A DNA stretch of 64,000 bases from Blastomussa wellsi (taxonomy: Eukaryota > Cnidaria > Anthozoa > Scleractinia > Plerogyridae), in the NCBI GenBank assembly GCA_947652115.1, contig OX393564.1:2537121-2601120 (forward strand). The letters run 5' to 3'. A program made the position numbers and the translations under genes. This document shows positions 7,686 to 58,846 of the stretch, piece by piece. The notes under the pieces were generated by a model. The model did not search any database and was not told the origin of the DNA. It was given only the letters and a program-made list of their open reading frames with translations. The stretch's first letter is position 1; every line of letters starts with the position of its first letter.

Positions 7686-10600
7686 ATGGAGCTTTCCCCA
7701 CGTTTTCTGAAAGGCGAGAAATTTGTCCAAAACGGACGTCCTTTAATTCTAGGTATAAGTCCTAACAATCCGTTCTATTACAAGCTGGATTCCCTCGAAC
7801 GGCTGTTTAATTTTGCTGCAAGAGCGAATTCAGATAAGGTTAGTATAACGGCCTACCTATAAGGAACTTATTTACTGATATTTGTAAATCCGGCATCCTC
7901 GATAATTGTACTCTTTGTAATCCAAATTGCACAAAACACTTACCTTTTACTTTTTTATGTTATCAGTAAAATCCAAGGGACTTTGCAACCAAATGTACAG
8001 ATAGATAGCTGAGATAAAATGAAAGATTCTACAGAACAAAATTAAACAACTATCTTGGGGTAGGAGTACATGATTCCAAGGAGAGAATTTATATTCGATC
8101 ATAGTTCATCAAATTGTTATATCACCATTCTGGTAAAATTGTGAATATTTTAGTTACTGTTCTCTATTTTTACTTGAAACTTCTTTGCTTTCACCATTTT
8201 TGACATGTTTCTTTCGATTTATAATATAGATAGGACTCTGCGCGCGCTCTGAGTGGTCAAAAATCCATGTTTTATCAGAGTATAAAACATAGAAAAATCT
8301 TGTTTTATTGTTTTTCGTCAGCTTTACTCTAGTGAAAATTCGCAAGGAATGGCGGCGAACATTTTCTATAAAGAAATTCCGGACAAAATTCTGAGTCAAG
8401 CTGCCGAGATTGACGAAGAAGCTTCTAAGTTCGAGATGAAAGTAGAAGAAGCGAAATTAAATTGCTTCATTGTTTATGGATCGTACCGGCGTGTTTTGGT
8501 GTTTTTACTCGCGACGTATAAATCTATATCATAAAACAAACGAAGAAGCCTAAGCCATGTACTATACTGTCATAAAACACTCCGGACATTTGAGAACACA
8601 ACTGCCCGTCGTGTTTTATGACAGTATAATACATGGCTTAGGCTTCTTTATTTGTTAATTAAAGATAATAAAGCAAGTCTTACAGAAGGCACAGGCCGCG
8701 GGATGGCCTCGGTGCAAACAAAGACTAGGATTTCTATCAGAAAACAATTATTGGCATGTCTTCAAGACGGGGAACCAGAAATCAAACGAAAACCATTTAA
8801 AGTAGAAATAACAAAAAAAAACAGGAGAAGTGTCAAACTAGGCTTGGGAAATTTAGGATCAAAACTACTTCAGTCGTGCGAAACAAGATCGGCTTGATAA
8901 TTAAATATTACAAACCCAAAATATATTACAATTCCCAAACCATTTTCACTTATGTTCAGAAATTCACGCAGTTAACGAATTTTAAAAAAATGCGATTTTC
9001 TTTGTTGCCTTGCGAAAACTACCAATTACTACGATTTCTATTGAATGCTTCTTGCATTGCCTTCCCTACTTACCGCGCGTTTGGAATTTTACAAAGTTTG
9101 CGACCATTCTTGTGTTACCATAACACAAGGACAGAGTGAGTTTCTTAAAGAAAAAATCGCATTTATCGACCACATTTTCAGTCGCCTATGACAGCCACAT
9201 GAAGGATGTCGCGTGGGCAGAAAACTTGAAAGTTGTTAAACTTCCCAACTTGATTTTTAATACATTTTTTTGGTAATCAGTTGAGAACTGTAAATAAAAT
9301 CAGCTCATGGAAAAAAGATATGGGTCACTGACCGATTAAGAGAGTAAACTACAAGCAAAGTTAATAAAACGACTTCTCGCCCTTTGTTCCCGCAGCGGCT
9401 CGATTTCCACCGCTCTCTCGAGTACGGTCTTCGTTTCGGGGAGGAGCGCGGGCTCCGGTTCCCGAACAGCGGCTGGTAATCGAGCCTAACAAAACATACA
9501 CCATGAGATAATTTGCAATAAGAAAACATGGCCCAATTATTTCCATCAAAAATTTCCCAGCGTGAAATATGCGAATAGGACATTTTATTATTTTTAAACC
9601 GACATGATGTTATTTTTTAGAGGGTCTCCAATAAGATTTTCGGGATCCGTGATTTGGCTTATTTGAAGGCCAAGATCCGGGATTTTAGAAGAAAATTGGC
9701 ATTGTGATTATGAACAAGACACGGGAATTGGCAATTTCACCAGGCGAGAATCGGAAAATGTCAGTTAAAAGAACCGAGATCTTGGAACAGCTGTAAATAG
9801 TCGAAAGAGGAATCATTTCCCAACAAAACCGACACCGCCGACAGTGGTATTGGTGAAATCCCATTTTTGGGACAATTTTCTTCTTGGAAGGGTTTCCAGG
9901 TTCAGTCGTGTTCAGTAGGCCCAGAAGCCGAACAAAGAAAAATTCTGAGTCCCCGACAGGAATCGAACACATGACCTCCAGAACACCGGGCGGGCGACTC
10001 CTGTCGGGGACTCAGACAGATCAGATCCCCCCATGCTCGTGTCATGTTGATAAAGTAATCTTTCACATTAAATTTACCGAGCTTAAAATTCACCATCACA
10101 AAGCACCATAAAGCACTTTTAAAAAGTGAATAAGCCCGTGTCTTACATGACCACTAATCTGTTTTATTTCCTCGTGCAGGTTTTAATTTTTATTGCTCCC
10201 GAAACTACTGAATATAACTACCGAGCAGTGGGCGTGAAAAACCCTCAAAAGAAAGCGCGAGCTCAAGGGAGACAGTTGCAGAACAAGTGCGATGAAGCCC
10301 TTCAAAACAGCGATCTTTGCAATGCTTCCTACAGCTTCGTCAGATGGGTAGAAGACGTGGAGAGCAGCCCCCAATACCAAAAAGCTTTAGCAGACATCAA
10401 AGAGCTGTACAAAGCAAATGATGAGTTCCGTAAAGATATTACAGAACCTACCGAGAGAGCCTTGAAGGGTCTGCAGAAGAGCCTTAGAAAAGGAAATGAA
10501 ACCGAGGAAGAGAAGGTGGATGTCGACGAAGGAGCTCTTTATCTGCTAACGGAGCTAGCGTTTTTCGTTGCGGTGCCAAGCATTTATGAGAAATGTGATG

Positions 10601-10710
10601 AGTATGTGTTCGTATATCACCGCGTTTCCCTCCCTCTCTTTGAGAGGTTCTTTGATGGTTGTTATGACGGCATCGAAAAGCCTTATATAGGTTTTTTCAT
10701 TTGTGAGTAA
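7686..10710 (+). CDS. tRNA-dependent cyclodipeptide synthase A (2 exons: 7686-7838, 10180-10710)
   Basis: CDPS enzymes take two aminoacyl-tRNAs and make a cyclic dipeptide (diketopiperazine). Exon 1 codes 51 residues and ends at AAG before the donor GTTAGT. Exon 2 starts after CTCGTGCAG and codes 176 residues, so the intron is phase 0 and the protein has 227 aa, a normal CDPS length. Exon 1 holds GISPNN, with the serine that carries the acyl group and the Asn three residues later. Exon 2 holds YLLTE (catalytic Tyr and Glu) and VFVYHR (Tyr-His). Together these mark the NYH subfamily. A basic helix (KKARAQGRQLQNK) fits tRNA contact. The ATG lies in a 5' leader, CATCGGCAAACGAACATGGA, shared with the other copies. 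The protein is clearly diverged from CDPS-B and C. The substrate amino acids cannot be read from sequence. Confidence 0.9.
8541..8650. repeat. Long hairpin in CDPS-A intron
   Basis: GAAGAAGCCTAAGCCATGTA and its near-exact reverse complement, with about 38-bp arms, flank a 30-bp loop. This looks like a small foldback or MITE remnant. Confidence 0.6.
9944..10016 (-). repeat. tRNA-like SINE remnant in a hairpin
   Basis: On the minus strand the phrase GTTCGATTCC matches a tRNA B-box. The whole stretch is bounded by the inverted arms GAGTCCCCGACAGG and CCTGTCGGGGACTC. It is probably a tRNA-derived repeat rather than a working tRNA, since no convincing A-box is seen. Confidence 0.35.
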
Positions 10711-15872: not shown

Positions 15873-16290
15873 TTTCCGCCAGCTGATTTTGCTTACTTAT
15901 TCCACATTAAATCTTAGTATTGAATATTAGTCCTGTTGTTAAAACTGGGGAATTGAATGATATTATCTATACGAAGTATAGATAATGTTCCATTATATAT
16001 TGAATGATATTATCTACACGAAGTATAGATTTATCTGAACGAAGTATAGATAATGTTCCATTATATATTGAATGATATTATCTACACGAAGTATAGATAA
16101 TGTTCCATTACATAGTGTTAGATATATAATACTGAAATCCAGTATTAAATTTAAGTATTATATATAAGTATTAAATTTAAGTATTATATATAAGTATTAA
16201 ATTTCAGTATTATATATAAGTATTAAATTTCAGTATTATATATAAGTATTAAATCTCAGTATTGAATTATAGGCCTGTTGTTGAAAATGT
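15873..16290 (+). repeat. Left terminal inverted repeat of the Maverick
   Basis: A 418-bp repeat matching the complement of 31912-32376. It is built of subrepeats. One is about 48 bp around CTATACGAAGTATAGATAAT (three partial copies). The other is about 28 bp around AAGTATTAAATTTAAGTATT (five copies). Confidence 0.9.
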
Positions 16291-16308
16291 TTTTTGTAAG
16301 ACAATAAG

Positions 16309-16944
16309 ATGGAAAATAAAAAGGGATATAAAAATTTAGTATGTTATTATTATAATAAGATGTATTGTAACTCTATAATTCATAATGAACTAAGCAAAAC
16401 TGAAGTTATATGTCCTTTTTGTGATAAACAGTTAGTGTATTATAGTAATAATATAGAAAAGGAAAAATGTTGTGATAATCAAAATGTTATTGATTTAAAT
16501 GGAATGAATACATGTATAAGTTGTGGTTTAGTTGCTGGTTATAACTTCAAAACAAATAAGTTTGATTTCTATGAAAATATGTATAAAATAAAAAGGAAAT
16601 CTATATATCATCGCAAATACCATATTGAGAATTTGATTAATAAATTAAATTTTAATAATAATGTTCAATTAACTTATAATCAAAAGGAACGGATTTATAA
16701 AGCATTCAATGAGATTGATAATGTTATATATTTAGTTGATAATAGTCGTAAACGAATTATTAATATTAAATTTATAATCATAGAACTGTTTAAGATGATG
16801 AATATTCATTATGAAGATATCACTTCAACAAAATCAAAAAAGACACTAGCATCTTATAATAAATATTGGAATGAAATAATGAATCTAATTGGTGATAAAA
16901 TTAAATCTATTCTTCAGGACAAAATATCTGATCATATTTTATAA
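16309..16944 (+). CDS. Zinc-ribbon protein resembling viral late transcription factor 3 (VLTF3-like)
   Basis: A 211-aa protein, just inside the left inverted repeat. It has one Cys pair near residue 35 (CPFCDK) and a second cluster CC...CISC at residues 53-74. After these comes IYHRKYHIENLINKL, which resembles the conserved block after the zinc ribbon in poxvirus A2L/VLTF3-type proteins. The likely role is transcription of late element genes, but this is inference from a short similarity. Its leader ATGGAAAATAAAAAGGGA is shared with the polymerase gene at the other end of the element. Its 3' end overlaps the convergent ORF at 16907-17131 by 38 bp. The reading frame is intact. Confidence 0.55.
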   Translation: MENKKGYKNLVCYYYNKMYCNSIIHNELSKTEVICPFCDKQLVYYSNNIEKEKCCDNQNVIDLNGMNTCISCGLVAGYNFKTNKFDFYENMYKIKRKSIYHRKYHIENLINKLNFNNNVQLTYNQKERIYKAFNEIDNVIYLVDNSRKRIINIKFIIIELFKMMNIHYEDITSTKSKKTLASYNKYWNEIMNLIGDKIKSILQDKISDHIL

Positions 16945-17131
16945 AAAATTTATCAACAACAGGTCCAATATCAATAACATAACTATCAATATTATTCATT
17001 GAATTAATTAAACATTCTCTGTCAAATTCACCTAATCTCATTGCATATTTTATCATAATTAATAGATGATTATAACTTTGATAAGCATATGTTGAATTTT
17101 GTATTTTCAAATCAAGGTCTTTATGCTTCAT
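16907..17131 (-). CDS. Small Maverick protein of unknown function
   Basis: A 74-aa frame on the minus strand, overlapping the end of the fibre-like gene (17121) by 11 bp in an operon-like arrangement, and overlapping the zinc-ribbon gene tail-to-tail. It is helical and mixed-charge with no motif I recognise. Keeping a frame with short overlaps suggests it is real, but it may be small-ORF noise. Confidence 0.4.
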   Translation of the reverse strand: MKHKDLDLKIQNSTYAYQSYNHLLIMIKYAMRLGEFDRECLINSMNNIDSYVIDIGPVVDKFFIKYDQIFCPEE

Positions 17132-17899
17132 CCAACCTGAGTTTTACTGCAACTTGATTATCAACATATGATTTATTAGCACCATGACGTGCAGCAGAAG
17201 GATTAGACATACCAACAACTTTATTATTGTTCATGTCTAATACCCCAAAAATATCAAGAGCGCCATTGATGGAATCACCTGATTTGCTTACCTTTGTATT
17301 TAGTTGAGTGTTTATCCATTGTTTAGTAGCAGCGTCTTGATCATCAATGGGATCTTTTGGGTTTATTATCTTTTTTTGGTTCATGTCAAGATCTGCAAGC
17401 ATCTTATTCTCACCAAGAACTGACAATGAGATCAAATCAACATACGCTTTATTTGCTGCTTGTAACTTTGTGGAAGGACTACTGACGTTGTTTATGTGTT
17501 TGTTGTTCATGTCAAGATCACCAGTCATTTGTTTTAATCCATCAAGAGGTAATAAACTATTACTGGTCAGATCAACATATTTTTTGCTCACCAAATCATT
17601 GTCTCCAAAAAGCCCATCATGATATGGTTCTGTGTTTCTAATAACATATTGATTTAAATCAAAATAATTACCATCTTTACCTTTTTTGAGGAATTTACTA
17701 TTGAGATATCTGTTACGTAGTGATCATAACTATCATCCTCAGCGACATCTGGAGGGCATTCAAGATTCCTTATTAGTTTATAATCGAAATTATAATTTCC
17801 ATCATCTGTCAATTTAAAACCAATACCAGGCAGTCCCCGTTGTGAACTCATCATTGTTGTTGTTGTTGATGTTGGTAAAAGTCCATTTGAATAACTCAT
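17121..17899 (-). pseudogene. Fibre-like protein with YVD repeats (frameshifted)
   Basis: Two minus-strand frames (17899-17654 and 17594-17121) are one gene split by a frameshift near 17690. The second part holds repeated units of the kind LDMNNKxINN...AANKAYVD, the pattern of phage and viral tail-fibre or receptor-binding proteins in which each unit forms a turn of a trimeric spike. Its start lies 12 bp downstream of the ATPase stop, and the minus-strand group ATPase, fibre and small ORF looks co-transcribed. A surface fibre of the virus-like particle is the likely role, by inference from the repeat type. Confidence 0.6.
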
Positions 17900-17911
17900 T
17901 ATATAATTAGA

Positions 17912-18547
17912 TTATATTTTTTCATTGAAATTTTTAGCTGTGAATTTTCTTGGTTTATCAACGTATATGAAGCTGTATGGTTCTTCCGTTGCTTTCTCAT
18001 ATGATTCTTTTAGAATACTGTTTTCACGGCAAATTAAACTCTTCTCATTAGCACTTGGGAATTCATAAATGGAGAAGTGTGAACAGTTCAATCTTATGTC
18101 TTTTGGCGTCTTATAATAACTTTGACTCAGATAAATCACACTACAATTTTTATGTCGTCCTCGTATAAAATAGTCAACCAGTGGTTTTTGGTTCTTCTCA
18201 CATACAAAATCATCAAAGATAACAATTTTCTGTGAGTCACTATCAAGCTCTTGAACTGGAATAATATCATCATTACTTGCTTCAATAACATCATAACCAA
18301 CTTCATTACTGATAGCTTGGAAGACGTTCATAAGATTCTGGTACTTAGACTGTTCTAAGTTTTTCGCGTAGAGATAAATTTTATCAAAATATAGTAGATT
18401 GTAGATCATATGTAACAGTGTGTTTGTTTTTCCTGAACCACTTGGACCACAAATCAGCATCCGGAAACATTGATGAAGCATGAAATTGTATAGTTGTCTG
18501 AAGTTTGAGACTACATATTCTTCAACATCAAAATTTGGTATTTTCAT
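17912..18547 (-). CDS. Genome-packaging ATPase (A32/FtsK-HerA type)
   Basis: A 211-aa intact frame. Walker A is GPSGSGKT near residue 34 and Walker B is KIVIFDDF near residue 108; after it comes RGRHKNCSVIYLSQSYYKTP, a typical sensor region. This family pumps viral DNA into capsids. Length and motifs match Polinton ATPases. The ATG is immediately preceded by ATATAGTATA, a short motif repeated before other Maverick genes. It is divergent from the plus-strand capsid gene block that begins at 18670. Confidence 0.9.
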   Translation of the reverse strand: MKIPNFDVEEYVVSNFRQLYNFMLHQCFRMLICGPSGSGKTNTLLHMIYNLLYFDKIYLYAKNLEQSKYQNLMNVFQAISNEVGYDVIEASNDDIIPVQELDSDSQKIVIFDDFVCEKNQKPLVDYFIRGRHKNCSVIYLSQSYYKTPKDIRLNCSHFSIYEFPSANEKSLICRENSILKESYEKATEEPYSFIYVDKPRKFTAKNFNEKI

Positions 18548-18669
18548 TATACTATATTGGTATATTAATTCAATATAATATGGTGTACAACACGGTGTTC
18601 AACATAATGTTTAACGTTATTTTTATATACGATTTTCATTTTTTATGTAACATAATAATATAACAAAAA

Positions 18670-19689: not shown

Positions 19690-19698
19690 TTTATGTAA

Positions 19699-20628
19699 AT
19701 GTATTATATACACATGGATCGAGAGATTGTATTGTCATCATATAGTGTTAAAAATCGAGGAAACAACACTCCTCAGAATTTTACAACTAAATTCACAAAT
19801 CCCATAATATTGGGTAAAAATTCTGAATATGTGGTAGGCCTTAACCGAATCATTAACATGTCGTTCACATGGTTCAATGTAAATTCCTCATATAATAATC
19901 AATTAATAAAGTATAGCTCTGATAACGGCTCAACATTTCATGAAATTACTTTCCCAGCAGGAGTTTGGAATTATACAGATTTCGATACGTACATCAAGGA
20001 CATAACTAAGATTGAAAAAGTTGTACCAAATGGTCCAAATACTGTTGATTATCCCATCAGTCTTGAATAGACTGAATAATAGATAGTAAGACTGAATAGA
20101 TGATAGACTGAATAAACAGTCTATCTATATATCTATCTATCCATAACTAAGATTGAAAAAGTTGTACCAAATGGTCCAAATACTGTTGATTATCCCATCA
20201 GTCTTGAATTCAGCAATACAACATTCAGAGTCACAGTCATATTAGCTAAAAATTACCAACTTGATTTAACAGCAAGCAATTTCAATGAACTGATTGGGTT
20301 TGAAAAGGTATTGCTGAAAGATGAATTGAATTTAGGACCAAAAGTGCCTAATCTCAGTCAAGATACTGACGTACTCAATATTCATTGTGACCTTATCAAC
20401 GATTCACTTGTAGACGGTCAAGATACAGACATCATTTATTCCTTCTCAACCAGCGTGCTTCGACCTAGTTACTCCTTTACCATCGAACCGCGAAGAGTCA
20501 CATTTAGTCCCATCAATAAAATTAGTATAAGTAGTATCAGGATACATATCACAGATGGAAAAAGGAGATTAATCAACCTTAATGGAGCAGATACAGCTTT
20601 TTCACTGATTCTGAAAAGGGTAGAATAA
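19699..20628 (+). pseudogene. Minor capsid (penton-type) protein, broken by an internal duplication
   Basis: The N-terminal half (19699-20070; the start may be the second ATG at 19714) and the C-terminal half (through 20628) belong to one single-jelly-roll penton protein. The N-terminal half has REIVLSSY and the C-terminal half SVLRPSYSFTIEPRRV and LINLNGADTAFSLIL, phrases typical of Polinton minor capsids. The gene is split because 68 bp (20001-20068) are repeated at 20142-20209 with a 73-bp spacer of GACTGAATA/ATCTATCTAT-rich sequence, which brings a stop right after the first copy. Confidence 0.8.
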
Positions 20629-20647
20629 TGTAACATAATAGTATAAA

Positions 20648-20989: not shown

Positions 20990-21017
20990 TTGCAAAATTA
21001 TCTAATATAATAGTATA

Positions 21018-23656: not shown

Positions 23657-23669
23657 CATATATGTATAC

Positions 23670-40409: not shown

Positions 40410-40562
40410 ATGGACGTTTATCAAAGTCTTATAAACGGCGAGAGATTTGTGCAGAGCAGACGTCCTTTAATTCTAGGGATAAGCCCTAACAATCCGCACT
40501 ATTACAAGCTAGATTCCCTCACGCGTCTGTTTGATTTCGCTGCAAGAACAAATTCAGACAAG
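40410..40562 (+). CDS. CDPS exon 1, orphan or alternative first exon
   Basis: 51 codons identical in protein to exon 1 of CDPS-B and C, with the GISPNN serine motif, an intact ATG and an intact donor (AAG then GTTAGT). Its upstream region is as complete as that of CDPS-B. No exon 2 lies between it and CDPS-B exon 1 at 46558. It could be a relic of a duplicate that lost exon 2, or an alternative promoter and first exon spliced to the exon at 51707. Without splicing, the frame runs on into the intron and stops after 13 further residues. Confidence 0.7.
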
Positions 40563-46373: not shown

Positions 46374-46557
46374 TTTATGGGAGGATTCGAAATTAAAAGT
46401 AACGATTCCATTACTTATTAACAGGTGTTATAAATTTGTCGTTTTAAATGAGGGCGTTGTCGTGGTACCGTTACTATTTGTAAAAATGCGATTGTACCAA
46501 AAAGGGTAATAAAATTATTCACGTTATTTCTTTTCCATACGACATCGGCAAACGAAC

Positions 46558-49500
46558 ATGGACGTTTATCAAAGTCTTATAAACGGCGAGAGATTTGTGC
46601 AGAGCAGACGTCCTTTAATTCTAGGGATAAGCCCTAACAATCCGCACTATTACAAGCTAGATTCCCTCACGCGTCTGTTTGATTTCGCTGCAAGAACAAA
46701 TTCAGACAAGGTTAGTATAACGGGCAAGGTAAAGGAGCTCGGTCGCGGATAACACTGTTTGAAGGCAATTTTATAAACTGCCTACACTGCCAAAGTTGAA
46801 TTTGTTCACGGTGACTATGCCCCTTTAAGGAACTTGTTGTATGATATTTGTAGATACATCCCCGATTATTCCTCGAAAATTGTAAGGCTTTTTTTTTCTC
46901 CAAATTGCGCGTTTTTCCATCAATGTTATCTTTCATGCATCGATGTTTTGTGAACTAAAAGATGCTCGATACAACTAAAAGATGCACGATACAACAAAAA
47001 GATGCTTGATACAACTAAAATATGTTCGATACAACTAAAAGCAGAACGAGACGCAAGCGTTAGATACCGTGCCCTGTAAATCTATCGCCAGCATGAGACT
47101 GAGAAGAAGAGAATGTATTTAAGTCAGCTGGGTGCTAGCTAGCAGGCGAACAAGGCTCCTTTACTCTATTCGTATTTACTACCACCAGAGGAATGGCTGA
47201 TGAATGCAAGAAATATCACAGTACACTGGCTGAGCTTTTATCAACCAAGAAGAAGAAGGGAGAGGATTATAATACTACAATGTCACGGATTCGAGTCAAA
47301 GTCTCATTCGCCCTCCTGACATCTGCGCTGCTATGCCTGAGAGGCTCGCGCTGTGTACGAAGAGCTCCGCCGAATATCACAGACAATGATTTTCAAATTC
47401 ACAAGGAAATAGCGAGATTTTAGGATTAGAACTTTTAGAACTTTTTAGGATTAGATCATAAGAACTTTTAGCTACTTTTTATTATTTTTTTTACACCTTT
47501 TCATATGTAAATGAAGATTAACGAAAATGCTAATCCAAGCTTTTTAACAATTCTTTTATTTGTTTGCACAAAGGATATAATTTTCCGAAAGAATACTTTG
47601 AAAGCCATGAATTATTTAGAATATCTGACACCGTTTATTTTAAATGAAAATACAAAGAGAAATATAAACTCGGAAAAAATCCGAGTCCCGGATGGGATTT
47701 GAACCCACGGCCTCCGTGATCAGTAGTCGGGTACTCTGACCACTGAGCTACTGGAGACTCTGTGGAAAGCAAGGGTCAAATGTGGGCCTTGATTGGAACC
47801 GCATCGTGCGACTGTACAGCCAAGTAATGACTAGCAAATGTGAACTCACTGACAGCATCACGCTGTCACATTAAGGAGTAGTATAGAGCGCACCAAATTA
47901 ACCCCCGTTTTTTCGAAGGCTTCTCATTAGCGTGGGGAGGAATAAATTAACTTGATCTAAAATTGCTGTGGTATCTCATGATCTGTTATGACAAAGGATT
48001 TTGGGGAGGATTTCATTAACATGGGTTCACCGTTACTGTTGTTGTTTCTCATTAACTGATTTATCCAATGAGTCTAACCAGTCCCAAAAACTGGTTTCTT
48101 CGTAGTTTTCCCAAAAGTTTCCCGTAGTTTTCACAAAACCTTCAACACTGGTCGGTTGTGTTTTCAAAATAAAAACGTGTTTCCATTCAGCAAGGCATTC
48201 TTGTCACAAAGAAGAAATCTACTAGTGGATGAAACTGAAATACATACACTACTCCTAAGGAATGAAATTGCAGACATGAGGTTCTCGGTCGCATACATTT
48301 TCTATTGCAGACATGTTTGATTTTTAAACAATGGTTTACACTGGACGTGCATTAGTGAACGCAATTATAAACCACGCATGACCAATCGAACTAATCCATT
48401 CACAAACGAAAAATAAGACTTTATGTTCTTGTGTGTGATCACTCCACAATCATTACATAGACGCAAACCTTCTTTCCCAAGTTCTAGGTTCAAAGCAATC
48501 TTGTAATCACATACTGGACAAATCCTGTAGTTATCGCGCCAAAAGCACTTTGGACATTTCATAACAGCAGTATCATAGACACTCGTGCCTTCGCAGTGTA
48601 TGTTGACACGGATCAGAGACTTAAGTCTGAATTGGTCGCGTTGAATCGCTATCATTATCGGCTTCTTCGCTGTTTTGGAACTCTTCAGCTCTGTTTCCTC
48701 CTCTTCATTACTCTCAGTCAAATCATCATCTCCATTGTCTGTATACGCTTTTTCTTTTTCTAACAAATCGCTTAGAAGTTTCTTATTCACCCCCAGCTCT
48801 GCCAGACCATACAGGAAGGTATTTCTCGGAGTGCACGAGGTTTGGGTAAATCCTCGTGATGTGGGAGTAATACATACTCGTCCAGATCGGCGATGTTTGT
48901 TACTGGTATTATGCGCTGATTTCGTAGCAACTGTCCGCGGGGTGTCCAGAACAAGATATCTTTGGAACTGGCCGTCCTATTAAACAGTTCAGACGCATAT
49001 TTTTCTTAAACTGCCTGAGAAAGATTATTCAAAACGTCTTTTATCCGTGGTTCGTCATCACGCTCATCAGAGGTTAGATCTTCCTGTTCACTATCATCCC
49101 AGGCGACCATTCTCTTCATATTGACCGCACTCATCATCGACTAGAACTAAATGATCATATACTATTTGAATACTAGTTTGTGATTTTTATATCATTAGAA
49201 GGCTTACACCACTTATGACAGGGGTCAATAAATCTTGTATAAAACCTCCTCCTTCTTGCACAAGAGTTTGCTTCTTTGTTTTGTAGGGTATATGAGGCTG
49301 GGCAAGATTGATAATAGCATCTTGTTTTGAAGTAATTTGTGCTTATCCTCTTCGGGAAATGGAATGTTTTTTCCTTGAGCACATTATGAAATATTTGCAC
49401 AGATGCATGCATCTGTTGTGGAGTGGCTGTCTTTAACAGGTGGTGGTGGTGGTGGTAAACAATAGAAATGTGGTGGAGGAGTTAAACAATAGAAATGTGG

Positions 49501-52252
49501 TGGAGGAGTTAAACAATAGAAATGTGGTGGATGGGTAAACAATAGAAATGTGGTGGTGGGGGTAAACAATAGAAATGTGGTGGTGGGGGTAAACAATAGA
49601 AATGTGGTGGTGGGGGTAAACAATAGAAATGTGGTGGTGGGGGTAAACAATAGAAATGTGGTGGAGGAGTTAAACAATAGAAATGTGGTGGTGGTGGTGG
49701 TGTAGTTAAACAATAGAAATGTGGTGGTGGTGGTGTAGTTAAACAATAGAAATGTGGTGGTGGTGGTGGTGTAGTTAAACAATAGAAATGTGGTGATGGT
49801 GGTGGAGGAGTTAAACAATAGAAATGTGGTAGTGGTGGTGGTGTAGTTAAACAATAGAAATGTGGTGGTGGTGGTGTAGTTAAACAATAGAAATGTGGTG
49901 GTGGTGGTGTAGTTAAACAATAGAAATGTGGTGGTGGTGGTGTAGTTAAACAATAGAAATGTGGTGGTGGTGGTGTAGTTAAACAATAGAAATGTGGTGG
50001 TGGTGGTGGTGTAGTTAAACAATAGAAATGTGGTGGTGGTGGTGGAGGAGTTAAACAATAGAAATGTGGTAGTGGTGGTGGTGTAGTTAAACAATAGAAA
50101 TGTGGTGGTGGTGGTGTAGTTAAACAATAGAAATGTGGTGGTGGTGGTGGTGTAGTTAAACAATAGAAATGTGGTGGTGGTGGTGGTGTAGTTAAACAAT
50201 AGAAATGTGGTGGTGGTGGTGGTGTAGTTAAACAATAGAAATGTGGTGGGAGTGGTGGTGTAGTTAAACAATAGAAATGTGGTGGTGGTGGTGGAGGAGT
50301 TAAACAATAGAAATGTGGTGGTGGTGGTGGTGTAGTTAAACAATAGAAATGTGGTAGTGGTGGTGTAGTTAAACAATAGAAATGTGGTGGTGGTGGTGGT
50401 GTAGTTAAACAATAGAAATGTGGTGGGAGTGGTGGTGTAGTTAAACAATAGAAATGTGGTGGTGGTGGTGGAGGAGTTAAACAATAGAAATGTGGTGGGA
50501 GTGGTGGTGTAGTTAAACAATAGAAATGTGGTGGGAGTGGTGGTGTAGTTAAACAATAGAAATGTGGTGGTGGTGGTGGTGTAGTTAAACAATAGAAATG
50601 TGGTGGGAGTGGTGGTGTAGTTAAACAATAGAAATGTGGTGGTGGTGGTGGAGGAGTTAAACAATAGAAATGTGGTGGTGGTGGTGGTGTAGTTAAACAA
50701 TAGAAATGTGGTAGTGGTGGTGTAGTTAAACAATAGAAATGTGGTGGTGGTGGTGGTGTAGTTAAACAATAGAAATGTGGTGGGAGTGGTGGTGTAGTTA
50801 AACAATAGAAATGTGGTGGTGGTGGTGGAGGAGTTAAACAATAGAAATGTGGTGGGAGTGGTGGTGTAGTTAAACAATAGAAATGTGGTGGGAGTGGTGG
50901 TGTAGTTAAACAATAGAAATGTGGTGGTGGTGGTGGTGTAGTTAAACAATAGAAATGTGGTGGTGGTGGTGGTGTAGTTAAACAATAGAAATGTGGTGGT
51001 GGTGGTGGAGGAGTTAAACAATAGAAATGTAGTGGTGGTGGTGTAGTTAAACAATAGAAATGTAGTGGTGGTGGTGTAGTTAAACAATAGAAATGTGGTG
51101 GTGGTGGTGTAGTTAAACAATAGAAATGTGGTAGTGGTGGTGGTGTAGTTAAACAATAGAAATGTGGTGGTGGTGGTGTAGTTAAACAATAGAAATGTGG
51201 TGGTGGTGGTGTAGTTAAACAATAGAAATGTGGTGGTGGTGGTGTAGTTAAACAATAGAAATGTGGTGGTGGTGGTGGTGTAGTTAAACAATAGAAATGT
51301 GGTAGTGGTGGTGGTGTAGTTAAACAATAGAAATGTGGTGGTGGTGGTGTAGTTAAACAATAGAAATGTGGTGGTGGTGGGTGAAAACGCTCTATTAGCT
51401 TATTGGTTTTGAATATTCGTTCCCAGTTCCCTCGGCGTTTAGATAATGGCTTATTCACTTATACGAAGCAGAATTCTTACATTTACGGAAAACCCCACAG
51501 TGCAAATCCTCGGGTTAGGTTCTAGACACGTGGACGATCAAAAATGCTTTTTTTTTTTTGTTTTTGTTGTTGTCGTCGTTGCCGTCGTTCAACTAGGCTG
51601 GCTTTGAGCAAATTCATTGTGTCTCTTTTGAGGTTTACCCCGTCGTTGTCCTAACGTTTATTCGCGTATACAACTAATAGCCATTTTATCTGTTTTCCTC
51701 GTACAGGTCTTGATTTTCATTGCTCCCGAGACTGCCGAGCATAATTACCGAGCAGTAGGCGTGAAAAACCCTGTGAAGTACGCGCGACTTGAAGGAAAGA
51801 GGTTGCAAAACAAATGCAATGAAGCCATTCAAAACAGCGATCTCCGCAATGCTTCCTACAGCTACGTCAAATGGGTAGAGGAGGTGGAAAGCTGCCCCAA
51901 ATACCACAAGGCTTTAGCAGACATCAAAGATCTGTACAACGCAAATGATGATTTCCGTAACGATGTTAGAGAAACCACCGAGGCAGCCTTGAAAAGTCTG
52001 CAAAAGAGCAGAGGAAAAGGAGCTTCCAGCAAAGGAAATGTAGCGGAGGAGGAGCAGGTGGATGTTGACGAAGGAGCTCTTTATCTGCTGACAGAGCTGG
52101 CGTTTTTCGTGGCGGTTCCAAGCATTTATGAGAAAAGTGATGAGTTTGTGTTCGTTTATCACCGCGTTTGGTCCCCCATGTTTGAAAAGTTCTGTGGTGG
52201 CTGTTACGACAACATCGAAAAGCCTTATATAGGTTTTTTCGTGGTTGAGTAA
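46558..52252 (+). CDS. tRNA-dependent cyclodipeptide synthase B (2 exons: 46558-46710, 51707-52252)
   Basis: Exon 1 codes 51 residues and ends at AAG before GTTAGT. Exon 2 starts after CCTCGTACAG and codes 181 residues. The intron is phase 0 and the product has 232 aa. Catalytic features of the NYH-type CDPS are all present: GISPNN in exon 1, then YLLTE and VFVYHR in exon 2. The tRNA-contact-like basic helix is KYARLEGKRLQNK. The charged loop GKGASSKGNVAEEEQ is longer than in CDPS-A. The intron (about 5 kb) contains a tRNA-like repeat, viral gene remnants and a large minisatellite. Exon 2 and its 3' flank are almost identical to CDPS-C; I see two protein differences. The substrate is not predictable here. 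Confidence 0.9.
47691..47760 (-). tRNA. tRNA-like sequence in CDPS-B intron (probably pseudo or SINE-derived)
   Basis: On the minus strand, TAGCTCAGTGG is a good A-box and GGTTCAAATCC a good B-box, with a T-stem GTGGG/CCCAT. The outer arms GAGTCTC and GGGACTC could pair, but spacing to the D-arm is off by two and the anticodon stem is poor. I assign no isotype. A second copy lies at 54963-55037. Confidence 0.4.
47761..48364. other. CDPS-B intron sequence, duplicated in CDPS-C
   Basis: Matches 55038-55657 closely. A minus-strand frame in the second copy (55591-55310, with phrases SSTSRFLLCDTEECLAEW and KTQPTSVEGFVKTTGQ) looks protein-like and lies next to the viral zinc-ribbon remnant, so it may be another gene piece of the same element. 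In the first copy it is disrupted. Confidence 0.35.
48365..49134 (-). pseudogene. Zinc-ribbon gene of a second virus-like element, decayed
   Basis: From an ATG at 49134 the minus strand reads MSAVNMKRMVAWDDSE and later ILFWTPRGQLLRNQRIIPV and YVLLPHHEDLPKPRALRE. A stop occurs near 49007 and a frameshift near 48800. The continuing frame (48790-48365) has KLLSDLLEKEKAY, an acidic stretch, and paired cysteines CPKC...CPVC...CNDC. I recall this protein type in cnidarian genomes next to a packaging ATPase like the one at 56392, in Maverick-like or adintovirus-like elements. It is not related in sequence to the Maverick at 15873. Function unknown. Confidence 0.55.
49187..49303 (-). pseudogene. Possible capsid-precursor fragment of the second virus-like element
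   Basis: A short minus-strand frame, HIPYKTKKQTLVQEGGGFI then a hydrophobic stretch and stop. A Gly-Gly site before a hydrophobic segment recalls pX-type precursors. It lies beside the zinc-ribbon remnant. Low confidence because of its length. Confidence 0.3.
49440..51382. repeat. 1.9-kb minisatellite, TGG-rich, in CDPS-B intron
   Basis: More than 50 tandem units of about 30-39 bp. Each joins a variable (TGG)n run to the constant phrase TTAAACAATAGAAATGTGG. Variants include GGAGG, AGTGG and GATGG triplets. Higher-order blocks of several units repeat around 50220-50900. Frames of about 650 codons exist on the minus strand in two phases, because unit lengths are multiples of three; I consider them non-coding. 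A short array of the same repeat is at 56103-56325. Confidence 0.95.
51383..51706. other. End of CDPS-B intron
   Basis: Unique sequence, then (from about 51588) a stretch shared with 58185-58300, leading to the polypyrimidine tract and acceptor CCTCGTACAG. A poly-T run lies at 51550-51560. Confidence 0.6.
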
Positions 52253-54068
52253 TAATTTAAAGAACTGTTTACTCTTTCGATCGGAAATTAAATCTTGAGT
52301 GCAAGAATTTGTCAGTTATCAGTCTTCATTGTCCGCCCTGTCCGAGGGAAGTGTGCTTAATCCGCCGATACATTTGCCTTTACCAATGCTTTGCGCGCGA
52401 AAACCCTAAAGCGTTTATAAAAACTCAAAGAAAAGCGCTAAAGCATTCAAACTCGGCAAGAGCAATGTTGTTGGTACAAGAACGATTTCCGTTAAACCAT
52501 ACCTTTCTATATTGCCAGTGGGTTTAGGTTGGTTTATGGCAAAATTTACGGCCGCCATCTTTTTTTCATACGGTGGATTGGACCTCAAATTTAAAGGGAG
52601 TTTAAGGCAGTCCTTAGCACACAAAAAACAAACGAATTGCTACCGCTACACCTAACAAGTTTTAGCGACTTACAACTGTCGTTTCGAGAGCGTCTAATTA
52701 GTGACTGACAAGTTTTGCTTTTCATCCCAGTAAAAAGTGACTCGTCCTTCAATGCGCTTTTTCTTTGAACGCAGTGCAAAAAGGGCATTGAAAACACAAG
52801 AAAGATACCACAACACACCATTTTCAAGTGAGTTCAAAACTACTTTAGCAGTCACTAAAGTGAAATTAACAGTTTACTTAAGGGGACATTTCGGTTGGTT
52901 CATGGTAAGATTCTGGCAGCTTAGTTAAAAAATCATATTTAATCAACAATTCACTCAAATTAACTTAGACTTAGTAAGAAGTATACCAAGGCCATTGCTT
53001 ACCACGTGACATATTCAATGTTTACCAATTGTTTATTTTCGGATCATTCACAGTTAAACGTTCCAAGTGTTTTTAACGAAAAGAAAGAGCAGCCGATTTC
53101 TAATTTTTTAAGCTCTGTATTTAATAACAGAAGCAATTAACAATCGCTCAGAATATCGCCTGATACTTAATTAGCTGACGAGAGAGAAGGCCAACTCAGC
53201 TAAAATCAGATAAAACGTGTTATGTCCGGATGACGGATAAATAATAAATTTCTGATCATAAATGGGCATTATTGTAGAAAGATACCTCCTAAAAGTATAA
53301 CTGTTCTCACACAGTCCGCGTTGTACCAATCCGATTGTTCCATAAATTAGGGGCCGCAGATGAAAAAGCACGATCCCCTAGTCTATTGTGACAAAATCGC
53401 TCTCAACACGGTCGCTAAGCTGGCAGTTTGAATTTGGCGGCCAAGTCAGCTGGATGCGACTCCAACTAAAGCAGAATTTGAAATTTAGAGTCTGAATAGT
53501 AGTGTTTTTCGAAAGGTTAGGATAAAACTTGAAATCCGAGGCAAAGCTTGTAGGAAGAAATATTATCAGCGGCTTCTGTGAAGCAGTTTTTGGCGAGATT
53601 AGGCCATTTTCGTGGGATTTATGGAGCTTTGAGGGTGCACCGTTGGCGGATTAGGTTGCCAGCCTTTCGCTTCGCTTTACTCGTAGGAAAAACATCAGAA
53701 GGTAAACTCGCCTAAATGTCTCTAAATCGACTCCAGGACCGTTGTATTTATTAATCACTATTTAGACGGCAAAATCCAGTTGGAAATGAATGCAGTAAAT
53801 CAAGCTTTATAAGGACAATTATGACCAACTAGAACGGAGTTTGTGATGACGATTCGGTCGAAAATCTATCAAAAGCCACCAAAAAATTAACCAAAACACT
53901 CCTTTCCACGCCTTCGCCCGCCATTTTGAAATCATGCATGTTGGTTACTAGATCCCAGTGCCACACACAGCCAGTATATGATGCATATCTGATCAGTGTG
54001 ATATCTGGTGTGTGATATCTGGTGCGTGATAATTTAGGGGTGGAGGACATGTTCCGGCAGACGTGAAC
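52253..54068. other. 3' flank of CDPS-B and 5' flank of CDPS-C
   Basis: 52253-53340 is near-identical to 58847-60055, part of the duplicated unit. Short open frames there recur in both copies but have no recognised motif. 53345-54060 is unique and must hold the promoter of CDPS-C, which therefore differs from those of the other copies: it lacks the palindrome module. Repeated GTGTGATATCTGGTG phrases occur at 53997-54030. Confidence 0.5.
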
Positions 54069-57000
54069 ATGGACGTTTATCAAAGTCTTATAAACGGCGA
54101 GAGATTTGTGCAGAGCAGACGTCCTTTAATTCTAGGGATAAGCCCTAACAATCCGCACTATTACAAGCTAGATTCCCTCACGCGTCTGTTTGATTTCGCT
54201 GCAAGAACAAATTCAGACAAGGTTAGTATAACGGGCAAGGTAAAGGAGCTCGGTCGCGGATAACACTGTTTGAAGGCTATTTTATAAACTGCCTACGCCG
54301 CCAAAGTTGAATTTGTTCACGGTGACTGTGCCATTTTTAAGGAACTTGTTGTATGATATTTGTAGATAAATCCCCGATTATTCCTCGAAAATTGTAAGGC
54401 TTTTTTTTCTCCAAATTGCACGAAACACTAATCTATGGCGGCTTTAAAAGGACAAAATATCGAATGTCCATACATCAATGTTATCTTGCATGCATCGATG
54501 TTGTGTGAACTAAAAGATGCACGATACAACCAAAAGATGCACAATGCAACAAAAAGATGCTTGATACAACTAAAAGATGTTCGATACAACGAGACGCAAG
54601 CGTTAGATATACTTACTTACTTAACCAAGAAGGGAGAGGATTATAATACTACAATGTCATGGATCATCTGATTCGCCCTCCTGAGGTCTGCGCTGCTATG
54701 CCTGAGAGTCTCACGCTGTGAACGAAGAGCTCCGCCGAATATCACAGACAATGATTTTCAAATCAACAAGGAAATAGCGAGATTTTAGGATTAGAACTTT
54801 TAGAACTTTTTAGGATTAGATCATTAGAACTTTTAGCTACCTTTTACTATTTTTTTTTACACCTTTTCATATGTAAATGAGGATTAACGAAAATGCTAAT
54901 CCAAGCTTTTTAACAATTCTTTTATTTGTTTGCACAAAGGATATCATTTTCCGAAAGAATACTCCCGGAGGGGATTTGAACCCACGGCCTCCGTGATCAG
55001 TAGTCGGGTACTCTGACCACTGAGCTACTGGAGACTCTGTGGAAAGCAAGGGTCAAATGTGGGCCTTGATTGGAACCGCATCGTGCGACTGTACAGCCAA
55101 GTAATGACTAGCAAATGTGAACTCACTGACAGCATCACGCTGTCACATTAAGGAGTAGTATAGAGCCCACCAAATTAACCCCCGTTTTTTCGGAGGATTC
55201 TCATTAGCGTGGGGAGGAATAAATTAACTTGATCTACAATTGCTGTGGTATCTCATGATCTATTATGACAAAGGATTTTGGGGAGGATTTCATTAACATG
55301 GGTTCACCGTTATTGTTTTTGTTTCTCATTAACTGATTTATCCAGTGAGTCTAACCAGTCCCAAAACCTGGTTTCATCACAATGCCATATTGAACTCACC
55401 TGGACTTGCCCCGTAGTTTTCACAAAACCTTCAACACTGGTCGGTTGTGTTTTCAAAATAAAAGCGTGTTGCCATTCAGCAAGGCATTCTTCAGTGTCAC
55501 AAAGAAGAAATCTACTAGTGGATGAAACTGAAATACAAACACTACTTCTAATGAATGAAATTGCAGACATGAGGTTCTCGGTCGCATACAATTTCTACTG
55601 CAGAAATGTTTGATTTTTAAACAATGGTTTAGACTGGACGTGCATTAGTGAACTCAATTATAAACCACGCATGACCAATCGAACTAATCCATTCACAAAC
55701 GAAAAATAAGACTTTATGTTCTTGTGTGTGATCACTCCACAATCATTACATAGACGCAAACCTTCTTTCCCAAGTTCTAGGTTCAAAGCAATCTCGTCAA
55801 TCTCGTAATCACATACTGGACAAATCCTGTAGTTATCGCGCCAAAAGTACTTTGGACATTTCATAACAGCAGTATCATAGACATTCGTGCCTTCGCAGTG
55901 TATGCTGACACGGATCAGAGACTTAAGTCTGAATTGGTCGCGTTGAATCGCTATCATTATCGGCTTCTTCGCTGTTTTGGAACTCTTCAGCTCTGTTTCC
56001 TCCTCTTCATTACTCTCAGTCAAATCATCATCTCCATTGTCTGTATACGCTTTTTCTTTTTCTAACAAATCGCTTAGAAGTTTCTTATTCACCCCCAGCT
56101 CTGTGGTGGTGGTGGTTGTGTAGTTAAACAATAGAAATGTGGTGGTGGTGTAGTTAAACAATAGAAATGTGGTGGTGGTGGTGGTGTAGTTAAACAATAG
56201 AAATGTGGTGGTGGTGGTGGTGTAGTTAAACAATAGAAATGTGGTGGTGGTGGTGGAGTTAAACAATGAAAATGTGGTGGTGGTGGTGGTGGTGCAGTTA
56301 AACAATAGAAATGCGGTGGTGCGCGGCCTGCAATTTGAATGTGAGAGATTACACATTTGGTCAGTTCTCCTTAAGGTTCGAAAGAGTTGACATGAGTTGG
56401 TCCTGCCCTGTTTGTCAAAGGGATTTTTCTAGGAAAGATAGTATGCAGCGCCACATAAGTAAACACAGTAAAAACGGTTTTGCTCAGTTTATGTCGTTAT
56501 CTCAAGAAAACTGTCAGCGTTTTCAAATGATTCATCCATTTACTTGCATGGTTGCTGGAATGGCCGGGTCAGGAAAAACCATCTGGGTGCAGTCACTGTT
56601 ACAACAAACTCAAAACGTGATCAATCAACCACCGGAGAGAATAATCTGATGTTATTCACAGTGGCAACCTGCTTACACCCAGTTATTGACGATAATACCG
56701 AGAATCAAATTTGTCAAATTCCTTCTGCACTGGAACAAGATTTCTATTTGGATACCAACCTACGCAACTTGCTTGTCATTGATGACCAGATGATTGAAGC
56801 CGAAAGGGATAATCGGATCGTGAAACTGTTTATAAAAGGATCACACCATCGAAACCTGTCTGTTATTTACATTGTAAAAACTCTAAAGGCAACCGAAGTA
56901 TCAGCTTAACCAGCCACTACTTGGTCCTTTTCAAGAATCCACGGGACAAACTACAGATTTTGACTCTAGCCAAGCAAGTGTATCCTGGGCAGACTTCTTG

Positions 57001-58846
57001 GTTTATAAAGCAGTACGAAGAAGCGCTGCGAAGGCCGTTTGGTTATCTTTTTGTTGACCTTAAAGCCGACTACTGAGGACAGTTGCAGATTGCGCACAAA
57101 TGTATTATCTGGTAAAGAACGATTCGACAGCTATTGTGAATAAGGCGTGTGACTAAAAACAGGAATCGATCCGAGACTTGGGCGACAAAGAAATTATATT
57201 TGTCATGCACAGTCTGCGGTTCTCGAAACTTTGTTATTTGTGAATTGCGGTGTCACGCAATGCAAAAAACTCCAAACATTGTATTTGTATGAATAAATCG
57301 GAAAAATCATGTTCATCATCATCATGTTGATTTCAGTATTAAAGAAAGCTTGAATTTCTGGAAACCAAATCAAAATGAAGCCAAGTGAATCGAAATCGTC
57401 GAACGCACTTCGAATCTTTGATTACTTCTAGTAAGAATTTATCGTGTTACCCTTACAATTCTTAAGACGCTAACCGCAAACGGGCTAACCGCAGTGCTCA
57501 GTAGCATAACCGGAGTGCTATAGTAGGCTAACCGGAGTGCTCAGTAGGCTAACCTGAGTGCTTAGTAGGCTAACCGCAGTGCTATAGTAGGCTAACCTGG
57601 GTGATTTTGTAGTCTAATTTAGCTAACCATACTCATTCCCAGTACATTAGGAGCTCGGATCGATTCCTGTATTTAGTCGCTGCCGTGAATAAGGTCCATA
57701 TAGAGCGTTTTCACGTAACGTCATAAAATTCTAAAACCCAAAACCAAAGAGCCACCAGACTTTTTATACTCATCAGGCATAAGAGGTGCTAAATTTATAT
57801 CTGTTTACAACTTTTCAGCTCAACAGCGTCCTTCGCTTGGAAACTAGCGCAATTTGAATTTCAGTGTTATGGCGGTGTGTTACGATCACGTGTGTCGAAA
57901 AACACATACTTATCTCACGAGATTTAGCCATTTTAGAAGTTTAAGTATTAGGAAAAGTGTTTATATGAACATTTGCTTGTTCAAAACAGGTAACCAGACG
58001 CCTAGATAACCAAAGTAAACTCTAGATGTTTACACTATTTTCGGCCGCCATGTTGGTGTTCCACTGATGTACATCAATATGGCGGCTCCTTACTGGGCTC
58101 TGTAAATTTGTGCGAGACATTTCGACCAATATCTGAAGTTTGGAACAACACACACGCCTGAAACTTGGAGAAGTGTTTTCTTTCAACTAGGCTGGCTTTG
58201 AGCAAATTCGTTGTGTTTCTTTTGAGGTTTACCCCTTCGTTGTCCTAACGTTTATTCGCGTATACAACTAATAGCCATTTTATCTGTTTTCCTCGTACAG
58301 GTCTTGATTTTCATTGCTCCCGAGACTGCCGAGCATAATTACCGAGCAGTAGGCGTGAAAAACCCTGTGAAGTACGCGCGACTTGAAGGAAAGAGATTGC
58401 AAAACAAATGCAATGAAGCCATTCAAAACAGCGATCTCCGCAATGCTTCCTACAGCTACGTCAAATGGGTAGAGGAGGTGGAAAGCTGCCCCAAATACCA
58501 CAAGGCTTTAGCAGACATCAAAGATCTGTACAACGCAAATGATGATTTCCGTAACGATGTTAGAGAAACCACCGAGGCAGCCTTGAAAAGTCTGCAAAAG
58601 AGCAGAGGAAAAGGAGCTTCAAACAAAGGAAATGTAGCGGAGGAGGAGCAGGTGGATGTTGACGAAGGAGCTCTTTATCTGCTGACAGAGCTGGCGTTTT
58701 TCGTGGCGGTTCCAAGCATTTATGAGAAAAGTGATGAGTTCGTGTTCGTTTATCACCGCGTTTGGTCCCCCATGTTTGAAAAGTTCTGTGGTGGCTGTTA
58801 CGACGGCATCGAAAAGCCTTATATAGGTTTTTTCGTGGTTGAGTAA
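54069..58846 (+). CDS. tRNA-dependent cyclodipeptide synthase C (2 exons: 54069-54221, 58301-58846)
   Basis: Same structure as CDPS-B: exon 1 of 51 codons ending AAG before GTTAGT, exon 2 of 181 codons after CCTCGTACAG, phase-0 intron, 232 aa. GISPNN, YLLTE and VFVYHR are conserved, so it is expected to be active as an NYH-type CDPS. It differs from CDPS-B at two positions I can see (Asn for Ser in the charged loop, Gly for Asn in CYDGIEKP). The Gly is shared with CDPS-A. The ATG sits in a new 5' context (GACGTGAACATGG), so expression may differ from B. The 4-kb intron holds a tRNA-like repeat, viral remnants and a decayed ATPase. The P450 gene lies 1.3 kb downstream in the opposite direction. 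Confidence 0.9.
54963..55037 (-). tRNA. tRNA-like sequence in CDPS-C intron
   Basis: Copy of 47691-47760 with a changed 3' arm. A- and B-boxes are intact. Likely a duplicated pseudo-tRNA or SINE piece. Confidence 0.4.
55658..56100 (-). pseudogene. Second copy of the viral zinc-ribbon gene remnant
   Basis: Near-identical to 48365-48800, with the same KLLSDLLEKEKAY, acidic stretch and Cys pairs. It keeps a few extra residues (YEIDEIALN), absent from the first copy. Its upstream part has been replaced by the minisatellite at 56103, so the open frame that runs on into the repeat is a chance fusion. Confidence 0.55.
56103..56325. repeat. Short array of the TGG-rich minisatellite
   Basis: About six units of the repeat seen at 49440-51382. 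It joins the viral zinc-ribbon remnant on the left to the region before the ATPase remnant on the right. Confidence 0.9.
56392..57143 (+). pseudogene. Packaging ATPase of a second virus-like lineage, decayed
   Basis: It begins with a C2H2 finger (CPVCQRDFSRKDSMQRHISKH), then MIHPFTCMVAGMAGSGKT with a Walker A motif. Further phrases in other frames are LLVIDDQMIEAE (Walker B region), LFIKGSHHRNLSVIYIV, and LAKQVYPGQTSWFIKQYEEA. This is an A32-like DNA-packaging ATPase, clearly different from the Maverick ATPase at 17912 (finger-bearing and longer). A TGA at 56647-56649 and frameshifts near 56720, 56880 and 57065 break it. It lies in the intron of CDPS-C, on the same strand. Confidence 0.7.
57144..58300. 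other. Last part of CDPS-C intron
   Basis: Apart from the tandem repeat, a MITE-like piece starts near 57706 (GAGCGTTTTCACGTAACGTCA) and holds inverted GCCGCCATGTTGG/TATGGCGGC phrases near 58030-58085. This resembles the AT-duplication family seen at 33093 and 44888. No gene is seen. Confidence 0.45.
57470..57612 (+). repeat. Short tandem repeat GCTAACCGGAGTGCT
   Basis: About six irregular units of 20-27 bp containing GGCTAACC and GAGTGCT. Non-coding. Confidence 0.75.

Follow-up and report, generated by a model that had tools for sequence, protein, structure and literature searches.

The window analysed here is a 64-kb stretch of the Blastomussa wellsi genome (C5:2537121-2601120), with an N count of 0, and lies on a 29-Mb contig, C5, of the 368-Mb assembly. 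A six-frame motif scan of the window, allowing at most one mismatch, located GISPNN exactly at five places (1656, 7752, 40476, 46624 and 54135) and YLLTE/VFVYHR exactly at three (10540/10606, 52082/52148 and 58676/58742). These correspond to three cyclodipeptide synthase (CDPS) genes, A, B and C, and two further copies of exon 1; unless stated otherwise, the gene features come from the motif scan, splice joining and Pfam.

1590..1676, plus strand: truncated exon 1 (pseudo-exon), from the motif scan and self-comparison
7552..7685, plus strand: 5' flank of A, about 79% alignable (exon 1 included) to the flanks of B and of the orphan exon at 40410; likely the promoter and 5'UTR of A
7686..7838, plus strand: gene A exon 1, 51 codons including the nucleophile motif GISPNN
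10180..10710, plus strand: gene A exon 2, ending at the stop
40410..40562, plus strand: extra intact exon 1 with donor, a possible alternative first exon for B
46558..46710, plus strand: gene B exon 1
51707..52252, plus strand: gene B exon 2
54069..54221, plus strand: gene C exon 1, lacking the stretch that precedes the other copies, from self-comparison, motifs and Pfam
58301..58846, plus strand: gene C exon 2

CDPS genes in the window and across the genome

Exon 1 measures 153 nt in each of A, B and C and is followed by a phase 0 intron, with the donor AAG/GTTAGT in all three and an acceptor ending in CGTGCAG (A) or CGTACAG (B, C). An earlier, sequence-only reading had proposed these as two-exon genes joined at 7838/10180, 46710/51707 and 54221/58301, each encoding GISPNN, YLLTE and VFVYHR. 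Joined at these sites, all three frames are open (A, 227 aa; B and C, 232 aa each), with exact matches to every motif, and the PF16715 search it had proposed as a check matched all three proteins with E-values of 2e-22 to 2e-19 (A, 80.8 bits; B, 71; C, 70.8; cutoff 27). Of the two orphan first exons in that reading, 40410-40562 stood, since every base is that of exon 1 of B and the donor is kept; the other, with its ATG at 1590, was only part of a broken exon, its homology ending after base 1676.

A six-frame census extended the family to five second exons and nine first exons within ~87 kb on C5, counts that may be minima, the census having covered all but one stretch of the cluster, and to one divergent gene, E, on C9. 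Seven matches in the genome exceeded the PF16715 cutoff, all on exons of Z, A, B, C, D and E. The C5 cluster encodes three protein types (Z/A, B/C and D), with E as a fourth. Z, D, E and the preponderance of first over second exons (9 to 5) are invisible from the 64-kb window alone.

Aligned columns of A and B hold equivalents of the catalytic positions S37, N40, Y178, E182, Y202 and H203, and the same six were read from the translations of C, D, E and Z; we take these numbers to be those of AlbC. The active site expected of a CDPS, the Ser of GxSxx(N) together with Tyr, Glu and Tyr, is thus present, and A and B carry N, Y and H at the columns presumed to define the NYH subfamily (N40, Y202, H203). 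The nuclear genome of this coral carries an NYH-type CDPS gene family.

B and C are near-copies, with 2 aa and 6 nt setting them apart over 232 codons, whereas B departs from A at 57 and C at 56 of 227 codons. Self-comparison of the window placed the start of homology in C at 54055, 14 nt ahead of its ATG, and revealed that the upstream sequence common to A, B and both orphans is absent from C; the intronic repeat is also far shorter in C than in B. The earlier proposal that an animal CDPS family grew by local duplication is supported. That reading also predicted several related diketopiperazines; B and C, only 2 aa apart, probably make the same product.

Cytochrome P450 genes beside the CDPS loci

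The window also contains a P450 gene on the minus strand, listed here in its direction of reading.

62862..63025, minus strand: candidate N-terminal exon, a proline-rich region followed by GHFHHVNFFGRTLSKTHGPIYYIW; read by eye, limits approximate
61716..62389, minus strand: internal exon, limits approximate; tblastn match to the C9 P450 (E 2e-7), without a Pfam match on its own
61194..61498, minus strand: exon with the I-helix and K-helix (KESAR) region; Pfam p450 E 5e-17 on the ORF 61134-61583
60143..60475, minus strand: haem exon, FGMGPRKCLGYR, to the stop; Pfam p450 E 1e-16

This gene was absent from the sequence-only reading, and its pairing with the CDPS genes is, in our judgement, the more important point. 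A PDB search with the first P450 piece returned nothing useful and one with the second returned 22 diverse P450s; on this basis the P450 was given no CYP family.

Each of the two CDPS loci found in the genome (C5 and C9) has a P450 in head-to-head orientation to a CDPS gene, and Pfam p450 matches two exons of either P450. A P450 census that scored 92 of the 197 candidates from a first look gave 38-59 P450 exon loci in the genome, depending on the merging distance. Thirty-six P450 stretches were taken, representing 32 of the 36 other P450 clusters that result when the merging distance is 50 kb; after omission of two shorter than 60 aa, the remaining 34 and the two CDPS-adjacent genes made a 36-row tree. 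The C5 and C9 genes are sisters in this tree (98/92), in which ten rows fill less than half of the columns. Among 38 P450 stretches compared, only these two have the Y in CxGYR. The C9 haem exon finds the window P450 as its best match (131; next, 103). The C9 gene sits on a long branch (1.77), two of its four pieces lack a Pfam match, no exon was identified in 9992.7-9996.7 kb, and one intron contains a LINE-like insertion.

We lean, by a little, towards reading the CDPS family (D, Z, A, B, C; E) and the P450s of this private clade as a two-enzyme animal biosynthetic cluster. A rather doubtful but serious competitor holds that the CDPS family is real, having grown by ordinary tandem expansion and releasing its product unmodified, and that the P450s are bystanders. 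P450s are common in animals, and this genome has dozens of P450 exon loci to only two CDPS loci; moreover, with the window haem exon alone as the query, seven other coral P450s (134-152) outscore the C9 P450 (131). Chance neighbours would nevertheless have to account for a P450 at two of two CDPS loci in the same head-to-head layout and for the sisterhood of the two genes; random placement gives P450 proximity at both loci with a probability of ~1e-5, a figure for two loci and a pattern noticed post hoc.

Other neighbours were also considered. The introns of B and C contain tRNA-Ser calls (33.7 and 34.8 bits; cutoff 29), which as partners of a tRNA-using enzyme were set aside: their scores are low and they lie antisense inside the duplicated block, so they are probably tRNA-derived repeats. 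MFS-like pieces occur ~16-19 kb from E, one just above the Pfam cutoff and one below it. A multi-TM ORF downstream of D had no Pfam match, and we therefore claim no transporter common to both loci.

Relatives of the CDPS proteins and constraint on the copies

Trees of 108 and 63 rows were built from 159 retrieved proteins and the coral's own, with Bacillus and other near-identical rows thinned and short fragments dropped. These are trees of the kind that the sequence-only reading had suggested, with cnidarian and bacterial members; in that of 63 rows the window CDPSs sit near Desmophyllum and Oculina. All close relatives with names are anthozoan. Z, A, B and C group with one further row, P0003 (100/99; 63-row tree), and this derived group has a long stem branch in both trees; D groups with two Oculina rows and five others (99/94; 63-row tree). 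E, a hand-joined three-exon model, is joined in the 63-row tree by a single odd row, probably bacterial, on a long branch, although animal proteins are its best matches (35%) in the retrieved set of 159. Animal and bacterial-type rows, many of the latter without a species name, stand apart on long branches, and the odd rows P0099 and P0154 attach unstably; the naming of a donor bacterium was given up on these grounds.

The fold was approached through P0014, an Oculina relative with 59-61% identity to the window exon-2 rows. The first 46 PDB matches to its 58-row AlphaFold model (pLDDT 93) were all CDPS structures, with TyrRS next, which predicts, by way of this relative, a Rossmann fold akin to that of class I aminoacyl-tRNA synthetases.

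NG86 dN/dS ratios stayed below 1 for each of the ten pairings of Z, A, B, C and D (0.22-0.44), with 0.22-0.27 for D versus the others and 0.30-0.33 for the Z/A type versus the B/C type. YN00 ratios were 0.52 for A-B and 0.48 for A-C, compared with NG86 values of 0.32 and 0.30, so the derived type may be only weakly constrained. In addition, Z, A, B and C have N39 where G is usual and T181, just before the catalytic Glu, where K is usual; again, we assume AlbC numbering. Altered or weakened activity of the four is therefore possible. Across 102 anthozoan-type rows, G occupies position 39 in 21/21 with a letter there and K or R position 181 in 98/100 likewise with a letter, the sole T being that of P0003. 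Bacterial-type rows have F at 39 (45/45) and A at 181 (44/44 with a letter), so both positions tolerate change.

It is unlikely, though not negligibly so, that Z, A, B and C have lost CDPS activity through decay or repurposing and that D, perhaps with E, supplies the only enzymes. The two substitutions lie beside catalytic residues and are unusual among anthozoan-type rows, the stem branch is long, the YN00 ratios are near 0.5, C has lost the shared 5' flank and transposons surround the genes; yet four frames are open with all six catalytic positions kept, the NG86 ratios between the Z/A and B/C types stay at 0.30-0.33, and bacterial-type rows vary at 39 and 181 as well.

Scans with a coral profile yielded 20 pattern matches in genome contigs and 151 in viral contigs, none of which proved by tblastn to encode a relative. 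The reach of such scans is limited to relatives that have the short stretches selected, and there is no doubt that bacterial CDPSs exist. Although CDPSs are mainly bacterial and B and C differ at only 6 nt in 232 codons, bacterial contamination (against which the earlier reading had also argued) or an assembly artefact is highly improbable, given an intron site apparently common to other anthozoan-type records, the animal transposons around the genes, the anthozoan identity of the named close relatives, the contig scans, an N-free window in a 29-Mb contig, and the 5' breakpoint and shorter intronic repeat of C, by which C is not a simple duplicated haplotype.

A candidate diketopiperazine pathway and its known counterparts

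Work by Seguin et al. (2011) is reportedly tied to Nvec-CDPS2 of Nematostella vectensis. Animal CDPSs, including coral ones, have already been published (PMC2922099, PMC5816076). PMC5816076 describes NYH members from coral, sea anemone and marine worm and motifs of the P1 and P2 pockets in CDPSs, and PMC4159871 describes Trp-containing products made by Nvec-CDPS2. Compared with published descriptions of Nvec-CDPS2 and other marine-animal CDPSs, the coral proteins are likewise animal-encoded and of the NYH subfamily; they differ in the tandem cluster, the surplus first exons, the fast-changed subtype, the distant second paralogue with other introns and the paired P450. The excerpts of the CDPS literature examined mention none of these five features for animals. 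A literature search covering few subscription journals found no paper evidently on an animal CDPS-P450 pair; its most direct query led to work on Trichoderma and on a bacterium.

At the one locus examined out of 10 of Bacillus type, in Bacillus spizizenii, a CDPS gene adjoins a P450 gene; we take this pair to be yvmC-cypX. The coral arrangement resembles it in placing a CDPS beside a P450. In contrast, the Bacillus genes overlap, run in one direction and include a bacterial P450, while those of the coral are spliced, face head-to-head and lie kilobases from each other. In a five-sequence comparison, the coral P450 had 23% identity to the Bacillus P450 (E 6e-5) and matched four coral P450 stretches more closely (E 5e-28 to 5e-22).

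Returning to the two-enzyme cluster, each CDPS would take two aminoacyl-tRNAs, load one amino acid on the Ser of GISPNN, couple the second and release a cyclic dipeptide, which the paired P450 would, by analogy with the Bacillus pair, oxidise to yield oxidised diketopiperazines. On C5, D would be the one canonical gene and Z, A, B and C four tandem descendants that have changed faster, and E on C9 would be an older relative. Repeated copying of the promoter and exon 1 probably raises or diversifies transcription of the second exons, and the excess of first over second exons represents an uncommon kind of local gene amplification. The fuller history is, in our estimation, evenly poised: an ancient stony-coral cluster in which a CDPS acquired long ago and an animal P450 of a private clade were assembled independently of Bacillus, duplicated early to two unlinked sites with the head-to-head layout kept, and make oxidised diketopiperazines.

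Animals are rarely credited with small-molecule gene clusters of their own. A precedent is provided by the octocoral terpene cyclase-P450 clusters (PMC11784711), in which an anthozoan biosynthetic gene likewise lies beside P450s in an animal genome, albeit in soft corals rather than a stony coral and with another core enzyme and product class. If the pairing proposed here is true, it would parallel, in an animal, the CDPS-P450 pair of Bacillus and supply two defined enzymes, and some diketopiperazines attributed to coral microbes could originate in the coral animal.

Cyclodipeptide synthase genes and their relatives

The models of A, B and C are open frames of 227, 232 and 232 aa that start with ATG, each with a phase 0 GT-AG intron after codon 51. 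A six-frame scan confirmed the positions of the cyclodipeptide synthase (CDPS) motifs named in the sequence-only reading, and the profile search it proposed matched all three predicted proteins to PF16715 at 71–81 bits (cutoff 27). A sequence search of the PDB ranked bacterial CDPSs first (best E 2e-6). Chance is no issue for this family match.

A protein search with gene A retrieved 10 relatives, two of them named and both from Desmophyllum pertusum. The CDPS profile search retrieved 99, in which a named minority comprises Desmophyllum, Oculina, Montipora, Actinia, Exaiptasia, Dendronephthya, Xenia, and Paramuricea. Among 102 anthozoan-type rows, 20 are full length, 52 start near the exon 2 border (from ~5 residues inside exon 2 to ~38 upstream), and 30 start inside exon 2. 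This is the output expected of an ORF caller facing an intron at that border; thus, the intron is probably common to hexacorals and octocorals. Of the full-length rows, eight belong to records of <2 kb with both exons fused, consistent with spliced transcripts, the source type of the records being unstated. The proposed tree was built with 63 rows and placed A, B, C and the two cluster genes outside the window, Z and D, inside a 20-row set (branch support 100/96). All named members of this set come from Desmophyllum and Oculina, which makes a stony coral close to them the very probable host.

D represents the canonical type (GISPGN, PDKISEHN, YLLKE) and has a 136 bp intron, while Z/A and B/C have in common a derived type (GISPNN, IAPET, YLLTE). 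The position after SP is G in all 21 other rows having a letter there, and before the catalytic Glu 98 of 100 rows have K or R; the single T is in P0003, whose place in the tree is with Z/A. All types retain the catalytic residues S, N, Y, E, Y, and H. Substitution ratios show purifying selection on the C5 genes, probably weaker in the derived type: NG86 dN/dS was 0.22–0.27 for D versus Z/A/B/C, 0.30–0.33 for Z/A versus B/C, 0.26 for B–C, and 0.44 for Z–A (dS just 0.021 in both of the last pairs), and YN00 gave 0.52 for A–B and 0.48 for A–C.

The second CDPS locus found in this genome is on C9:

C9:9983372-9986093 (stretches L023-L024): divergent CDPS gene E, three exons

None of the introns of E lies where the C5 genes have theirs, and the best-matching of the 159 retrieved proteins is 35% identical to it.

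Duplications and mobile elements of the C5 cluster

Self-comparison of the window (pieces of at least 150 bp) disclosed the following blocks:

~680-1676, 39432-41577 and 45486-47572: upstream duplicated blocks, mostly 97–99% alike
51585-53207 (B) and 58179-59799 (C): exon 2 block, 97.5% alike

Intron pieces of B and C are 93–97% alike. A can be aligned with B only over exon 1 together with the 134 bp of flank 5' of it (79%) and around exon 2 (83%), which argues that this flank of A probably comprises promoter and 5'UTR. Homology of C starts 14 nt 5' of its ATG, so its 5' flank differs from those of the other copies. Promoter-plus-exon-1 units outnumber second exons, and this surplus is real; the extra units could act as alternative promoters for one second exon.

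Several repeats accompany the cluster. At ~800-7150 of the C5 stretch L019 (C5 ~2517920-2524270), three 2203-bp tandem repeats each carry the same CDPS exon 1 with its donor; 3 of 2203 positions distinguish the stretch around the second copy from that around the third. Between a truncated exon 1 and gene A, a reverse transcriptase, presumably Penelope-like, spans two ORFs (2137-4469), the second matching RVT_1 at E 1e-4, under the Pfam cutoff. The element at 15873-32376, which we take to be Polinton/Maverick-like, has ~400-bp terminal inverted repeats (93.7% alike with gaps, 98–99% in ungapped pieces) and ORFs for an A32-like packaging ATPase, a PLA2-like protein, and a chromodomain; its flanking block recurs without the element at 41.5–44.7 kb, with a junction near 44005-44061. 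The interval 34714-39433, presumably a Gypsy-type LTR retrotransposon, encodes RT, RNase H and integrase in one open frame of 1434 aa and is young because its 213-bp LTRs are 99.5% alike; its end is the start of the upstream block 39432-39909. Antisense tRNA-Ser-like sequences (anticodon act) in the introns of B (47683-47758, 33.7 bits) and C (54960-55035, 34.8 bits) are probably tRNA-derived repeats. The B intron also holds a large array (49509-51458; units mostly 33–36 bp apart, 51 register copies), whose C counterpart covers just ~220 bp (56102-56321).

P450 genes paired with the two CDPS loci

~60.1-63.0 kb, minus strand: multi-exon P450 gene between C and D (window P450); Pfam p450 matches two exons

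Searched alone against Pfam, the larger internal piece of this gene gave no match. About 4.5 kb separates its first recognisable exon from the start codon of D, a gene running in the opposite direction. The C9 P450 runs away from E, with its first homologous exon ~5.5 kb from the E ATG; of its four pieces searched against Pfam, two matched, and the remaining two align with the window P450. The two genes are 36% identical over 121 tree columns and have in common the haem motif FGxGPRxCxGYR; the Tyr of CxGYR is absent from all 36 other P450 stretches, one of which comes closest with GFR. The two genes are sisters in a 36-row tree (support 98/92), and in the haem exon no other stretch matches the C9 P450 as well as the window P450 does. 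Against the sister reading, seven other stretches outscore the C9 P450 in haem-exon comparison with the window P450, and the C9 row sits on a long branch (1.77).

Merged P450 matches gave 38–59 loci, and the regions up to 10 kb from any of the other P450 loci make up 0.31–0.33% of the genome. The chance of both CDPS loci having a nearby P450 is ~1e-5, a figure that could be several times larger, as scoring in the census covered 92 of 197 candidates, and for which P450 was chosen post hoc, after the pairing had been noticed. The two loci may also descend from one ancestral pair, the linkage having arisen once and then been kept. Despite the incomplete census, the post hoc choice and possible common ancestry, we consider the association more probably real than not.

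Comparison with known CDPS systems

The present analysis shows family membership, catalytic residues, gene structures and locus pairing. According to excerpts of the cited papers, catalysis by CDPSs consumes two aminoacyl-tRNAs and passes through a covalent seryl intermediate (PMC5816076), Nvec-CDPS2 products contain Trp (PMC4159871), and a Platynereis CDPS is described as immune-response induced (PMC2922099); it is not named in the excerpted text of PMC1939704. The CDPS gene of Bacillus spizizenii and a P450 gene overlap, and an MFS gene lies close by on the opposite strand. Compared with this Bacillus P450, the coral P450 shows 23% identity (E 6e-5), whereas the best match of the coral P450 among four coral P450 stretches reaches E 5e-28; judged by this similarity, the coral and Bacillus pairings were most likely assembled separately.

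This kind of CDPS family is already known; the novel aspect in this coral is the P450 pairing together with the exon 1 surplus, which is worth a direct test. The coral P450 would oxidise the cyclic dipeptide, and the oxidised product may perhaps have a role in defence.
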